Part shown: positions 219 through 5,632 of the stretch, piece by piece | Layout of the letters: each line of letters opens with the position of its first letter | How positions within the stretch are numbered: position 1 is the stretch's first letter | From: Methanoregula sp. | Lineage (GTDB): Archaea > Halobacteriota > Methanomicrobia > Methanomicrobiales > Methanospirillaceae | NCBI RefSeq assembly: GCF_002835825.1 | Contig: NZ_PIZH01000014.1 | Span: 1-13,346, forward strand | Direction of reading: 5' to 3' | Length of the DNA stretch: 13,346 nt | The notes under the pieces: model-generated | Told to the model about the DNA's origin: nothing | The model's input: only the letters and a program-made list of their open reading frames with translations | Databases searched by the model: none | Position numbers and translations under genes: made by a program

Positions 219-1466
219 TCAGAACACCAGCACCCGCTGGTGCTCGGCATGCACATTCCCCGGGGGATAGAACAGGATCTTACCAAGCCCCGGGAATCCG
301 ATGTCAAGGACTGCGTTTAAGTCCTTGTTTTTCGTGAGCCCCCGCTTTTGCAGGGACGGTACGAGCACAAAGAAGTGGAGGTTCTCGCTTCCCGCCACCG
401 CATTGATCACATCCTGGATCGTGAAGAGGGGGGACTCCGCGGGTGCCCGGTGTGCCCCGGCAACCGAGTACACACCGTCTTCAAGGAAGACAACGCGGGT
501 CAGCACGCCCTGGTGGGCACAGGCAACGGCAAACGAGACTGCCCCAAGCACCATCTCGGTGCTGTACGGGGATGAGGTGACGAGGATCGTTACCGGGGGA
601 GCGGTGCTGCTCTTCTCGGCGCGGTCAAAGGAGACCGTTATCCCTTTCTTCGGGAAGTTGATCGAGCCGGCATTGGATGAGAGGATGATATGCGGGCGCT
701 CGAACCGGTCGACAATCGCGTTCAGGTCGCGGATATGGAACGGCTTGATGGCGCAGGTCGAGATAACCGATCCCTTCCCGTCATCCCAGGTGCTGTACCC
801 CCTCGCCGTCGCATACCGGTTGCAGGCAAGGAAGAGGCTTGAAACATTCTGTTTTGCCGCACGGTCATGGATCTCCTCGAGACCGTGCCCGACATTCTCC
901 GATTCGGTCGGGTGCTGGGCAGTGTGTCCCATGTGGATGCCGTCAAGGTACGCGTACAGTTCCGGTGAGAGCCGTGCCTCGATGCCGGCGTTCAGGCACC
1001 GCAGGGCATACACGGCGGAGAGATGCATGTAGGGCGACTCGCCCTGGAGCCAGCCGATGCCATCGGGAAGCGGCGGCCGGTTCTGCCGCACGAGCCCGAC
1101 CACGTCCTTCCAGAACGAGGGATGGTTGTCCGCGGCAAGGCTGTTGTTGTCGATCACCTGTTCGGGATATTTCATCTTCAGGCGACCGGCCGATACCCCG
1201 CGGAGATCCAGCTCCTGCCGGTCGCAGACGATCCTGACCGCGGTCAGCGAGAGGATGACCGACCAGACCTGCACGGTCTCGGCATCCTCAAGGCTGTATA
1301 ATGCGTCCCCGGTTAAGAGGAACGTGACGACCGGGCTCTCGGCCGGGGCCCGGTGCATCAGCGACTCCGGGTAGAGCTGGACAAAGAAGAACTTGAGACA
1401 CTCCTCGATCCACGAGAGCCGCTCAACGGACAGGCTGCCGGAAAGGAGGAAAAAATGCGTTGTCAT
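219..1466 (-). CDS. DsrE-superfamily three-domain fusion (TusB-TusD-TusC-like)
   Basis: This 415-aa soluble protein is probably a sulfur-relay protein. Residues 1-125 resemble DsrH/TusB: a LLTGDALYSL strand-loop at 50-59, then VRIVCDRQELDLRGV (77-91), like the family's 'aL..Dl.aRG' block. Residues 145-265 resemble DsrE/TusD: YMHLSAVYALRCLNAGIEARL, a GLEEI..A helix, then FLACNRYATARGY, where Cys215 sits where TusD carries its persulfide cysteine. Residues 291-400 resemble DsrF/TusC: VTILVTSSPYSTE...VVFLEDGVYSV. In bacteria these are separate subunits of the TusBCD or DsrEFH hexamer, which takes sulfur from TusA; here they are joined. HRAPAESP occurs twice (38-45 and 339-346). The gene lies 27 nt after the TusA-like gene, presumably in one operon. 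No TusE/DsrC partner is seen. ATG at 1466 is the first start and has no strong Shine-Dalgarno. Domain assignment is by eye; the DsrE fold is fairly sure, the exact one-to-one mapping less so. Confidence 0.75.
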   Translation of the reverse strand: MTTHFFLLSGSLSVERLSWIEECLKFFFVQLYPESLMHRAPAESPVVTFLLTGDALYSLEDAETVQVWSVILSLTAVRIVCDRQELDLRGVSAGRLKMKYPEQVIDNNSLAADNHPSFWKDVVGLVRQNRPPLPDGIGWLQGESPYMHLSAVYALRCLNAGIEARLSPELYAYLDGIHMGHTAQHPTESENVGHGLEEIHDRAAKQNVSSLFLACNRYATARGYSTWDDGKGSVISTCAIKPFHIRDLNAIVDRFERPHIILSSNAGSINFPKKGITVSFDRAEKSSTAPPVTILVTSSPYSTEMVLGAVSFAVACAHQGVLTRVVFLEDGVYSVAGAHRAPAESPLFTIQDVINAVAGSENLHFFVLVPSLQKRGLTKNKDLNAVLDIGFPGLGKILFYPPGNVHAEHQRVLVF

Positions 1467-1493: not shown

Positions 1494-1724
1494 TCATTTT
1501 CTCGCCAGCCGGATCTCCCAGTGCCCGTCCGGCAATTGTGCGATCTCCATAGAGAGGCCCCCCTCCCGTGCAATCCGCGGAATGAAGGTTGTAACGGCGG
1601 GGAAATTATCGCAGGTAATGAATAATTCCCCTGACGGGGATAAAGCCTTTGCTTTTTTCTCTACGACTGACAGGCAATACGGGCTCGTTTTACCGGAAAT
1701 ATCGAGTTTCTTCTGTTTTGCCAC
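1494..1724 (-). CDS. TusA/SirA-like sulfur carrier with SPYC motif
   Basis: This 76-aa protein starts at a GTG. It has the TusA (SirA/YedF) fold pattern: LDISG (7-11), the motif region, a helix VVEKKAKAL, then GELFITCDN (32-40), a long helix through FIPRIAREGG, and a C-terminal strand HWEIRLARK. TusA proteins carry a persulfide on the cysteine of a CPxP motif. Here the aligned residues are Ser14-Pro15-Tyr16-Cys17, so the usual Cys is Ser and a Cys replaces the second Pro. Cys38 is the only other cysteine. Either sulfur chemistry has moved to Cys17 or the carrier role has changed. It is followed by the TusBCD-like fusion 27 nt downstream, the expected acceptor of TusA sulfur, which supports a shared role. 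Family placement is confident; activity is not. Confidence 0.75.
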   Translation of the reverse strand: MAKQKKLDISGKTSPYCLSVVEKKAKALSPSGELFITCDNFPAVTTFIPRIAREGGLSMEIAQLPDGHWEIRLARK

Positions 1725-1853: not shown

Positions 1854-2030
1854 ATGAGTGACGAGAAGATAAAAAAGGCAATAGAAGAAGCAGGAATTAC
1901 CGAGAAGATCACCTGCCCGCAGGCGTTTGCAATCGCCGAGAAGGCAAAAGTCTCACGGAAAGCCGTGGGCGAGTACTGCACAAAGAACCGGATCAAGATC
2001 CGGGAGTGCCAGCTGGGCTGCTTCAAATGA
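1854..2030 (+). CDS. Small Cys-rich HTH-like protein coupled to moeA
   Basis: This 58-aa frame runs from ATG at 1854 to TGA at 2028-2030. The predicted shape is a short helix, then an HTH-like segment: ITCPQAFAIAEKAKVSRKAVGEYC, with 'AFAIAEKAKVSRKAVGEYC' in the helix-turn-helix position, and a compact tail IKIRECQLGCFK. It has four cysteines (21, 42, 52, 56), which is many for this size and could bind metal or be redox-active. Its stop overlaps the moeA start (ATGA), so the two are almost certainly translationally coupled and functionally linked. I infer a DNA-binding or metal-sensing accessory protein for molybdenum metabolism, but I cannot name a family. An upstream ATG at 1844 stops after five codons and is not the start. 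Protein-like composition and the overlap make the gene itself likely. Confidence 0.75.
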   Translation: MSDEKIKKAIEEAGITEKITCPQAFAIAEKAKVSRKAVGEYCTKNRIKIRECQLGCFK

Positions 2031-3235
2031 GCAGGTTCCTCTCCGTCATTCCCGTAGCGGATGCCGTAAAGGCAGTGGAACGGATCGCCCCTGCACCGCA
2101 GGCAGAGACAGTCCCGATCGATGCATCCGCCGGGAGGGTGCTGGCAGAAGATATACGATCGGATACGGACATTCCCGGCTTTGACCGATCGGTTGTCGAC
2201 GGGTACGCGGTCCGGTCGGCCGATACGACCGGTGCGGGAGACTCGATCCCCGCGCTCCTCCGGTGCGTGGGGAGGATCGCGATGGGAAACCTGGATTCAT
2301 CGCTCGTTATCGGGAATGGCGAGTGCGCTTACATACCCACGGGGGGCATTCTCCCGCAGGGCGCCGATGCAGCGGTGATGGTGGAATATACCGAAGTTGC
2401 CGGTGACACCATACTCATCAGGAAGGCGGCATCCCACGGAGAGAATATCATCAGGAAGGACGAGGACTTCCGGTCCGGAGAGCGTGTCTTTTCCACCGGC
2501 CGCAGGCTCACGCCGCAGGATGCCGGCGTCCTCGCCGCCTGTGGCTGTGCGGATGTCACCGTGGCAAAAAAGCCCGTTGTCGGGATCATTTCGACCGGTA
2601 ACGAACTCGTGCCAGCCAATGTCGTGCCCGGGCCCGGGCAGGTGCGGGACGCAAATGCCCCGATGCTTGCCGCATGGCTTCTTGAATACGGCTGCCTGCC
2701 GCGGCGGTACGGAATCGTAAAGGATGAGCGCGAAGCGTTCGAGGCCGTGATCACAAGGGCGGTTGCAGAATGCGATGTCGTGCTCCTTTCAGGAGGGAGC
2801 TCCAAGGACGACCGGGACATGACGGCAAGCGTCATTGCATCGCAGGGTGAAGTGCTGGTCCACGGGATTGCGCTCGCGCCGGGCAAACCAACCATCATCG
2901 GGACCGTCGGCAGCACACCGGTCTTCGGGCTGCCCGGACACCCGGCCTCGGCCTTTGTCGTCCTGATCGCGATCGTCCGCCCGCTGCTCGACCGGATGCT
3001 CGGGCAGAGTGAGCCCCTCGTCCGGACCGTGCGGGCAACGCTTTCCGAGAACATCCCCTCGCAGCGAGGGAGAGAGGAGTACGTCCGCGTGAAGGTGAAA
3101 GACGGGATCGCGACTCCGCTCTTTGGCAAGTCCGGCCTCCTCAACACGCTTGTCCGGAGCCAGGGGCTGATCCGGATCCCGGCCGGCTTCGAGGGGCTTG
3201 AGAAGGGCAGCACCGTTGACGTTATTTTATGGTGA
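2027..3235 (+). CDS. moeA: Molybdopterin molybdenumtransferase MoeA
   Basis: This 402-aa protein inserts molybdenum (or tungsten) into adenylated molybdopterin in the last step of cofactor synthesis. Visible motifs in family order: IPGFDRSVVDGYAVRSADT (49-67, the conserved DGYA block), PTGGILPQGADAAVMVE (104-120), IISTGNELV (187-195), GQVRDANAPML (204-214), the substrate loop VVLLSGGSSKDDRD (251-264) and ALAPGKPTIIG..PVFGLPGHPASAF (282-310). Length is normal for a single MoeA. The chosen start is the ATG at 2027, inside the stop of the 58-aa gene. A longer frame from a GTG at 2006 would add seven unrelated residues and overlap that gene further. The loop reads GGSSKDDRD rather than the common GGVSxGxxD, and GLPGHP rather than GLPGNP. 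A MOT1-type transporter gene lies nearby. Confidence 0.95.
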   Translation: MSRFLSVIPVADAVKAVERIAPAPQAETVPIDASAGRVLAEDIRSDTDIPGFDRSVVDGYAVRSADTTGAGDSIPALLRCVGRIAMGNLDSSLVIGNGECAYIPTGGILPQGADAAVMVEYTEVAGDTILIRKAASHGENIIRKDEDFRSGERVFSTGRRLTPQDAGVLAACGCADVTVAKKPVVGIISTGNELVPANVVPGPGQVRDANAPMLAAWLLEYGCLPRRYGIVKDEREAFEAVITRAVAECDVVLLSGGSSKDDRDMTASVIASQGEVLVHGIALAPGKPTIIGTVGSTPVFGLPGHPASAFVVLIAIVRPLLDRMLGQSEPLVRTVRATLSENIPSQRGREEYVRVKVKDGIATPLFGKSGLLNTLVRSQGLIRIPAGFEGLEKGSTVDVILW

Positions 3236-4471: not shown

Positions 4472-5602
4472 TCAGTTCGCCGGTGCAGCCCTCTTCGCGT
4501 GCCATGCCAGCAGGTATGCAAGGACCATCCCCGCAATGAAGGCAAGCGTGATCGAGCTGACGAGTGCAAGGAACCCGATGACCGCGGTCACTGCGAGCGA
4601 ATCGGTCTTCAGGCTGTGGCGCCCCATCTCGATCCCGACAAAGACGAGCAACGCGCCGAGCACGCCGACTGCAATGAGGGAGAGGACCTGCGGCGAAGTA
4701 AAGAAGAGGGCAAGCACAATGAAGATGATGCCCGCATAGATATTCGCCCCGCCGGTGCGGGCCCCGTACCGGTACTGCCCCGCAAGCCCGCCGGCACCAT
4801 GGCACATCGGGAACCCGCCGAACGGGACCGAGGTCAGGTTCATCAGGCCGATGGTGGTGGAGAATTTTTTCGGTGGCACATCCCGGCCGAACAGGTCCTT
4901 GGTCAAAAGCGAGGTGGCGAGGATGGCATTTGCGATGGTGAGGACGAGCTGGGGAAGGACCAGCTCCGATACGGCAGGGATGACATCCGTGGTGAGGGGG
5001 ATCACGAGCCGTGGTGCAGGGATCAGGCTTATCGGGGGCAGACCAAAGAGCATGATGCCCCCCACAAGGCCCACGACGATGACACAGATCGAGGAGAGGT
5101 CGGGGATCCCCCGGAACCGGACCAGGAGGAGGAAGCCGACAATGACAGCGATCCCGATCCCGAAGAAGAGAGGGTCTTCGATGATGAACCCGGCTGATGA
5201 GCGGAAGAGGAGGAGGGCAAGGCCGAGCTGGATACCCCGCACAACGCTCTGCGGCACGTAGCGTTCGATGATCTCAAAGAAACGGCCGTAGCCGAGGATG
5301 AGGAAGATGACACCAAGGATTATACCGGCAACAGCGATCTCGCCGGATGAAATCCCCCCGGTCGCACCCGCGGCAATAACGACAACGGCGATCGCTTTCA
5401 TCGGTTCCAGCGGGATGGGCAGCCGGTAATACAGGCCGGTGAGGATGAACCAGATCCCAAAAAAGAGCAGGATGTAGCGGGGGTCCACATCCGAGACGAG
5501 CGCAACGGCAAGGATGAGCGGGATGATGGTCCCAAAGTCCCCGAGAGATCCTGCAAGCTCCGTGAGGGAGAACGAGAGCGGGAGCGGGGAGTCTTTGTTC
5601 AT
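4472..5602 (-). CDS. MOT1-family molybdate/sulfate transporter
   Basis: This integral membrane protein of 376 aa has about ten helices. It fits the MOT1 branch related to SulP anion transporters, which import molybdate at low concentration. Diagnostic blocks (numbered from the upstream GTG, giving 380 aa) are FSLTELAGSLGDFGTIIPL (15-33), PIPLEPMKAIAV (66-77) and PFGGFPMCHGAGGLAGQYRYGARTGG (264-289). No STAS domain follows, as in MOT1 and unlike full SulP proteins. I chose the ATG at 5602 because the GTG at 5614 lies inside a perfect stem-loop; the longer start adds only MPAS. Proximity to moeA supports molybdate as substrate, with tungstate or sulfate possible. The likely promoter is at about 5640-5647, giving a very short or absent leader. 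Confidence 0.9.
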   Translation of the reverse strand: MNKDSPLPLSFSLTELAGSLGDFGTIIPLILAVALVSDVDPRYILLFFGIWFILTGLYYRLPIPLEPMKAIAVVVIAAGATGGISSGEIAVAGIILGVIFLILGYGRFFEIIERYVPQSVVRGIQLGLALLLFRSSAGFIIEDPLFFGIGIAVIVGFLLLVRFRGIPDLSSICVIVVGLVGGIMLFGLPPISLIPAPRLVIPLTTDVIPAVSELVLPQLVLTIANAILATSLLTKDLFGRDVPPKKFSTTIGLMNLTSVPFGGFPMCHGAGGLAGQYRYGARTGGANIYAGIIFIVLALFFTSPQVLSLIAVGVLGALLVFVGIEMGRHSLKTDSLAVTAVIGFLALVSSITLAFIAGMVLAYLLAWHAKRAAPAN

Positions 5603-5611
5603 GGACGCAGG

Positions 5612-5632
5612 CACGGGCGGCGGTCGCCCGTG
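5612..5632 (-). repeat. Perfect 8-bp stem-loop at the transporter 5' end
   Basis: CACGGGCG (5612-5619) and CGCCCGTG (5625-5632) are exact inverted repeats around a five-base loop. They lie just before the ATG of the transporter gene and include the alternative GTG. The predicted transcription start (about 25 bp past the TATA-like element at 5640-5647) falls within or beside it. It may be a regulator-binding palindrome or a leader hairpin. Confidence 0.5.

Follow-up and report, generated by a model that had tools for sequence, protein, structure and literature searches.

A single-chain protein with TusB-, TusD-, and TusC-like domains in Methanoregula and other archaea, a probable persulfide carrier

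How activated sulfur (or selenium) is moved in methanogens and Asgard archaea without the bacterial acceptors is the question raised by one gene of a Methanoregula contig (NZ_PIZH01000014.1, assembly GCF_002835825.1). The window analyzed here is this entire contig of 13,346 nucleotides, and its parent genome is 90% complete. The TusBCD and DsrEFH type I complexes of bacteria are heterohexamers of two stacked trimers; TusBCD works with TusE and MnmA, DsrEFH type I with DsrC and DsrAB, and the E. coli TusBCD genes have the order D-C-B. A preliminary description of the window proposed that the gene in question encodes all three subunits in one chain, in the order TusB-TusD-TusC. Based on the results below, we consider this architecture very probably right, and we favor the explanation that the protein carries persulfide sulfur.

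Three DsrE-superfamily domains in one chain

The protein is encoded by a single open reading frame (ORF; Table 1), and predicted structures gave one superfamily fold for all three of its domains, in agreement with the proposal that three segments of the DsrE superfamily follow one another in this archaeal chain. When the domains were compared with the subunits of unfused archaeal operons by hhalign, the top matches of domains 1, 2, and 3 were the B, D, and C subunits, respectively, which supports the proposed order. The matches of domain 2 to D (E-value 1.1e-19) and of domain 3 to C (6.6e-16) were strong, and domain 3 also matched Pfam DsrE (5.2e-9) and the profile of DsrF (2hy5_B, 3.8e-5). 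The preliminary description had called for each segment to be compared separately with its subunit; this comparison succeeded for D and C, whereas domain 1 matched an archaeal B subunit at just 2.4e-6 (probability 89), ahead of 0.0012 for the B of the second operon type and of 0.0093 and 0.029 for C and D, respectively.

Two observations limit the reading of domain 1 as a B subunit. Cross-subunit matches in the same comparison reach 3e-6 to 7e-6 (for example domain 3 with D, or domain 2 with B of the B-D-C set), and the match of domain 1 to B of the B-D-C set, the fusion's own order, is just the 0.0012 given above. Because cross-subunit matches are equally strong, the E-value of domain 1 by itself shows the superfamily and not the subunit. 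From these sequence comparisons the D label of domain 2 and the C label of domain 3 are strong; the B label of domain 1, which has the superfamily fold and ranks B first without a direct sequence match, is weaker and is drawn from ranking, fold, and order together.

The window's protein falls below the NCBI cut-offs for TusB, TusC, and TusD, with best scores of 23.6 bits against a cut-off of 89.25 (TIGR03012) and 17 against 94.15 (TIGR03010), and phmmer with the single fusion sequence found no match in the PDB. Profiles of domain 1 gave only chance-level matches in the PDB, NCBIfam, and Pfam, with DsrE found in 1 of 41 members at 0.11. Each of the six archaeal B proteins examined had TIGR03011 (TusB) as its top NCBIfam match, at 7.4e-21 in the best case and above cut-off in two. 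In 19 of 33 full-length fusion members TIGR03011 matches domain 3 rather than domain 1, so these fusion matches were not used to support the TusB label. Although the fusion lies outside the NCBI TusB, TusC, and TusD families by their cut-offs, it probably works like them. The predicted model of the whole chain (predicted template-modeling score 0.88) is compatible with a single-chain mimic of the trimer; VIA-align on this model scarcely covered domain 1, and domain 1 was modeled separately.

The proposed active-site cysteine, Cys215, was found at the TusD active-site position: a profile alignment to 2hy5_A pairs it with residue 78 of A. vinosum DsrE, the sulfur-binding cysteine according to the passages of PMC13293266 that treat it. 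For conservation and neighborhood counts, 70 loci were taken from 156 by requiring that one ORF span over 300 positions of the model and by deduplicating on the last 150 residues; shorter pieces (such as L027, L040, L042, L043, and L140-L142) were excluded beforehand. Of the 33 close homologs, 28 have Cys215, as do 23 of the 25 diverse ones and 63 of the 70 loci. A second cysteine at position 218 makes a CxxC motif in 43 of the 70 loci; the window has Cys215 and Tyr218. His178 and His181 occur together in all 33 close homologs (24/25 and 25/25, respectively, in the diverse set), and Arg222 and Gly223 are likewise invariant in these 33. Cys81 and Cys238 are present in 32 and 31 of the 33 close relatives but in only 7 and 9 of the 25 diverse homologs.

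Distribution and origin of the fused gene

The three-domain layout, which the preliminary description suggested seeking in other archaea, occurs in the order of the window genome, where 70 of 232 genomes gave some match and 61 have a full-length fusion, and in the phylum to which the genome collection assigns a Lokiarchaeota genome (118 and 9 of 227, respectively; one of these nine, G233, is labeled Bathyarchaeota). Where related contigs carry titles, most of these name Methanoregula or another member of Methanomicrobiales, a few name Asgard archaea, and one names Bathyarchaeota. A scan that took in 84,980 species of bacteria and archaea found 55 loci, all with archaeal titles; it used two short peptide patterns, from which absence in bacteria does not follow. 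We conclude that the one-chain TusB-D-C protein is a family of methanogens and Asgard archaea.

Unfused relatives were found when 392 genomes of the phylum were searched: 67 matched, of which, as we read them, 25, all in the window's order, have the full-length fusion and 42 do not. Eighteen regions of these 42, and a few more, were read. They contain three-gene operons in the order D-C-B (L195, L196, L200-L202, L204, L206, L207, and L139, the last from the window's own family) and in the order B-D-C, the latter often followed by a TusA-like gene (for example L194, L197, and L203). Asgard archaea also have unfused B-D-C operons (L224 and L225), in which the D subunit carries the motif ACSRCAAARGY, close to that of the fusion. 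The existence of B-D-C operons suggests a joining of adjacent genes, and the fusion most likely arose in this way, in the order B-D-C.

Some copies are broken or unusually long. In the one-contig genome G011 (contig C1), a second copy (L040, 4292-5555) is split into two overlapping ORFs that match query residues 1-277 and 285-415, which may reflect a frameshift, an error of assembly, or a gene that is naturally split. In the window genome, contig C791 of G000 (L049, 3778-3930) has a 49-residue stretch with 61% likeness to the fusion C terminus and an internal stop, perhaps the remnant of a second copy. Frames of 576-577 residues at L093, L095, and L099 were considered as a source of extra domains, and their N-terminal stretches were taken to be sequence read from upstream of the gene.

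Cassette and non-cassette loci

By a split of our own, a cassette locus has a YeeE-type motif upstream, at a distance of at most 2.5 kb, or, on the downstream side, a TCTN/TCTS motif at most 450 bases away; 12 loci have less than 2.5 kb of upstream sequence, and four non-cassette loci, including the window, have less than 450 bases downstream. Thirty-one of the 70 loci are cassette loci. The transporter motif and a second TusA-like gene occur together in 23 of them, and at 11 loci a TusA was seen in addition, all three by motif. Two short YeeE-type (Sulf_transp-type) genes lie upstream in 22-23 loci (the three tested are Pfam Sulf_transp), and a TusA-like gene is found at most 70 nt upstream of the fusion in 27 of the 70. 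The second TusA-like gene, downstream of the fusion, is weaker: it was recognized by motif at 28 of the 70 loci and by eye at L046 and L156, with Pfam E-values of 0.0026 for a Lokiarchaeota copy and 0.11 and 0.069 for two others, all short of the cut-off.

The two kinds of locus differ in their cysteines. CxxC is retained in 31/31 cassette loci versus 12/39 non-cassette loci, and the five loci with neither cysteine are all among the 39. Thus the earlier expectation, a single active cysteine for every three domains, does not hold in general. TusA neighbors follow the same division, with CPYC or CPFC in all 16 recognized at cassette loci (no upstream TusA was recognized at the remaining 15, mostly from Methanolinea) and SPYC or SPFC in all 11 recognized at non-cassette loci (10 by motif, L050 by eye).

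In a quick tree, for which long-branch warnings were issued on rows that include Asgard ones, the branch that holds the window gene comprises 23 non-cassette loci (Shimodaira-Hasegawa-like approximate likelihood ratio test, 100). The upstream neighborhood of the window gene has a TusA-like gene and no yeeE, whereas other members of the family have both; the window genome has a different YeeE-type pair elsewhere (G000:C477). The TusA-like gene is on the same strand as the fusion gene, 27 nt upstream of it, and its product scores just below the Pfam TusA cut-off (3.6e-6; 27.2 bits versus 28.6). It has lost the first cysteine of its motif and so lacks the catalytic Cys-Pro. Both genes are under purifying selection, with ratios of nonsynonymous to synonymous substitution (dN/dS), measured against four relatives, of 0.145-0.162 for the fusion and 0.109-0.398 for the TusA-like gene. 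A moeA family gene lies within eight genes at 19 of the 23 loci of this branch, as against two cassette loci and three others, and Cys215 is kept in 20 of the 23, the window among them. At L035, in a genome consisting of one contig, a copy with 91% identity likewise lacks a second TusA-like gene. The window's gene represents a derived side branch and is a paralogue outside the YeeE cassette.

Other genes recur nearby; the families were formed by BLAST single-linkage clustering of greedy ORF calls, and some members may be wrong. A molybdate transporter gene (MFS_MOT1 by Pfam, 4472-5614) lies two genes past moeA in the window, and L035 apparently has the same moeA-molybdate transporter order, so the region looks molybdenum-related. 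Within eight genes of the fusion, a family of small sulfite reductase-like proteins with NIR_SIR and ferredoxin domains was found at 28 loci and a molybdopterin oxidoreductase family resembling FwdB at 19. A protein of 117-122 residues follows the second TusA-like gene in Methanoregula and Asgard cassettes; the copies look alike by eye, and two that were searched against Pfam gave nothing above cut-off. At L140 (4669-7831, genome G201), a divergent 380-residue fusion stands in a single-strand run with apparently both YeeE halves, two TusA-like genes (the first a TusA with CPFC), and OsmC (Pfam). A seven-locus branch (L082-L085, L146, L151, and L152) has an upstream neighbor of 248-267 residues, alike by eye, of which the L084 copy is Nitroreductase by Pfam; no adjacent TusA was recognized in this branch.

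Table 1. Positions of the fusion, its domains, and neighboring genes. Positions are those of the window unless a locus is named.
Feature	Position	Strand	Basis or remark
One-chain TusB-TusD-TusC-like protein, 415 residues	219..1466	-	single ORF; stop codon 219-221
Domain 1, residues 1-132, DsrE-superfamily fold, TusB/DsrH-like by ranking	1071..1466	-	hhalign to archaeal B subunit, predicted fold
Domain 2, residues 135-265, TusD/DsrE-like, bears Cys215	672..1064	-	
Domain 3, residues 289-415, TusC/DsrF-like	222..602	-	Pfam DsrE, DsrF profile, hhalign to archaeal C
Cys215 codon, DsrE Cys78 / TusD active-site position	822..824	-	profile alignment to 2hy5_A
His178-x-x-His181 within YLDGxHxxHxxQ, domain 2	924..935	-	conservation among homologs
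TusA-like protein, 76 residues, SPYC (Ser14, Cys17) replacing CPxP/CPxC	1494..1724	-	Pfam TusA
MoeA, divergent neighbor	2006..3235	+	Pfam
NIR_SIR family copies	L036 9213-10100; L046 2574-3449; others		Pfam run on L036 copy
117-122-residue protein copies	L036 5158-5508; L104 7433-7798; L219 3050-3403		

A candidate sulfur relay, its rivals, and known systems

We regard it as probable that the fusion is a one-chain TusBCD/DsrEFH heterotrimer that acts as a persulfide carrier; our confidence is slightly reduced by the selenium link described in PMC5322559 (below) and by domain 1 matching B no better than different subunits match each other. By this explanation, Cys215 of the TusD-like domain would accept sulfane sulfur from the TusA-type partner encoded upstream and hand it on, and the other two domains would be structural. 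In the cassette form, YeeE-type transporter halves and TusA may bring the sulfur in; a possible next carrier, in the place of TusE or DsrC, is the second TusA-like protein encoded behind the fusion. Transfer of sulfur from TusA to Cys67 of DsrE has been reported in vitro for an analogous separate-gene complex of cable bacteria, in the part of PMC13293266 that deals with it.

In the window, the loss of the first motif cysteine from the TusA neighbor means that the donor, the acceptor, or both have changed. The copy, which stands apart from the cassette and whose TusA lacks the cysteine, could be a former sulfurtransferase that turned into a binding or regulatory protein, as might be expected from SPxC in 11/11 TusA neighbors of non-cassette loci and from the paucity of CxxC, or of any active-site cysteine, among those 39 loci. 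We think this unlikely in view of the retention of Cys215 in the window and most of its branch, the invariance of His178, His181, Arg222, and Gly223 across 33 of 33 close homologs, and the low dN/dS of the fusion gene. That the window's protein still moves sulfur is, on balance, the reading to which we incline. Its acceptor might be a molybdenum or tungsten (Mo/W) pterin enzyme, reached by sulfuration, a guess made because moeA recurs as a neighbor.

The cassette might instead carry selenium, with YeeE/YedE-type import, TusA, and the fusion delivering it to selenophosphate synthetase (SelD). In one Lokiarchaeota genome (G232:C40), a SelD gene (17349-18191; above the NCBI cut-off, with one in-frame TGA) stands right behind the cassette, whose fusion is at 15483-16661; in G233 (C402, labeled Bathyarchaeota), SelD is divergent and ahead of the cassette, and at L219 a SelD-like ORF, recognized by eye, follows it. 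The YedE passages of PMC5322559 report co-occurrence of YedE and SelD and describe YedE of archaea as two neighboring genes, like the transporter halves here, and PMC11097638, in the results available to us, finds that TusAD and YedE transcripts of M. maripaludis rise on selenium depletion. Yet the same results give no clear selenium phenotype for a yedE deletion in M. maripaludis. SelD was above cut-off in 4 of 20 genomes (G150, G232, G233, and G234) and below it in all 15 fusion-carrying Methanomicrobiales tested, including the window genome, each of which has weaker matches; G150, the one tested Methanomicrobiales genome with SelD above cut-off, lacks a full-length fusion, and one of the four Asgard-side genomes (G235) also lacks SelD above cut-off. 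Selenium delivery is thus rather improbable as a general account: sulfur is the likelier cargo in the window, where selenium is the weaker rival, and selenium is a serious rival in Asgard archaea. G150 also has a row of DsrE-like, TusA-like (CPIP), and SelD genes (L143, 5454-7093), likely a selenium operon.

Acceptors were sought in 16 genomes, including that of the window and two without a full-length fusion (G150 and G352). Supply of sulfur for tRNA 2-thiouridine, as by E. coli TusBCD, would agree with the shared subunit set and the TusA-like gene, but MnmA was above cut-off in none of the 16 genomes (14 have weak partial matches) and DsrC/TusE (PF04358) was found in none (the sole control match among 14 was in E. 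coli); this explanation is very improbable and was dropped. Dsr-based sulfur oxidation was also set aside, as DsrA (TIGR02064) was above cut-off in 0/16 genomes, all of which have weaker matches, in a search without a positive control (no control genome passed the cut-off either). Origin of the chain by intragenic duplication, rather than by fusion of B, D, and C subunits, would account for the common fold, but it is scarcely credible and was rejected on the domain-by-domain profile comparison, because the domains resemble each other only slightly (E-values of 0.31 for domains 1 and 2, 0.047 for 1 and 3, and 0.0029 for 2 and 3), separate D and C subunits are by far the better matches for domains 2 and 3, as B is a better one for domain 1, and unfused operons in the same order exist.

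If the persulfide carrier explanation is extended, methanogens and Asgard archaea may share an unreported chalcogen import and relay pathway without TusE, DsrC, or MnmA, made up of a split YeeE-type channel, a CPxC TusA, a CxxC one-chain TusB-D-C, and a second TusA-like carrier, with the Methanoregula paralogue re-aimed at Mo/W-cofactor sulfuration; as a whole this is a tentative proposal, possible though doubtful. A single-chain carrier fixes the stoichiometry, should be easy to express and mutate, and offers genetic access to the pathway. Natural variants within the family range from CxxC with CPxC to cysteines lost on both partners and allow the cysteine needs of the relay to be tested.

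No description of a fused TusBCD or DsrEFH was found in the literature searched by title, beginning of abstract, and passages, a scope outside which subscription journals and preprints fall; PMC13293266 does not contain the words "fused" or "fusion," and the consulted passages of PMC13047784 use them for rhodanese fusions. Thiosulfate uptake by YeeE/YeeD (TsuA/TsuB) pairs a YeeE-type transporter with a TusA-type partner, as here, in the account excerpted from PMC11073785, and in YedE/YedF of selenium metabolism the archaeal YedE is split in two and YedF joins TusA-like and DsrE-like domains (PMC5322559, same passages); neither partial account includes a three-domain B-D-C chain. Transfer of sulfur from YeeD to a DsrEFH-like complex is put forward only as speculation in the relevant part of PMC13047784.

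The unfused archaeal D-C-B and B-D-C operons (L195, L194, L224, and others) encode homologous subunits as separate proteins of about 90-165 residues by ORF calls, with a D subunit that often has a similar CxxC (CARCAAARGY in L195, ACSRCAAARGY in L224). TusBCD of E. coli and DsrEFH type I of A. vinosum (2HY5) have the same superfamily folds and the active cysteine at the same D/E position, but they consist of separate subunits in place of a single 415-residue ORF. DsrEFH type II, known to us by description, has three separate genes, has DsrC as its acceptor, and occurs in 73.9% of genomes with reductive dsrAB, whereas the system described here is a single chain, is archaeal, and comes from genomes in which we found no DsrC and no DsrA above cut-off. 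The DsrEFH survey, as set out in its methods passages, demanded three syntenic genes, so that it would have left a fusion uncounted, and any survey with this requirement misses the one-chain branch (PMC13293266). Like the fusion loci, the DsrEFH type II (YTD) cluster has three DsrE-superfamily subunits, tusA in the operon, and yeeE beside it, with one conserved DsrE cysteine and very low identity to type I (PMC13293266; PMC13047784). As far as the portions of these two papers that describe it go, separate-gene DsrEFH type II is the closest published system to the one-chain protein of the window.
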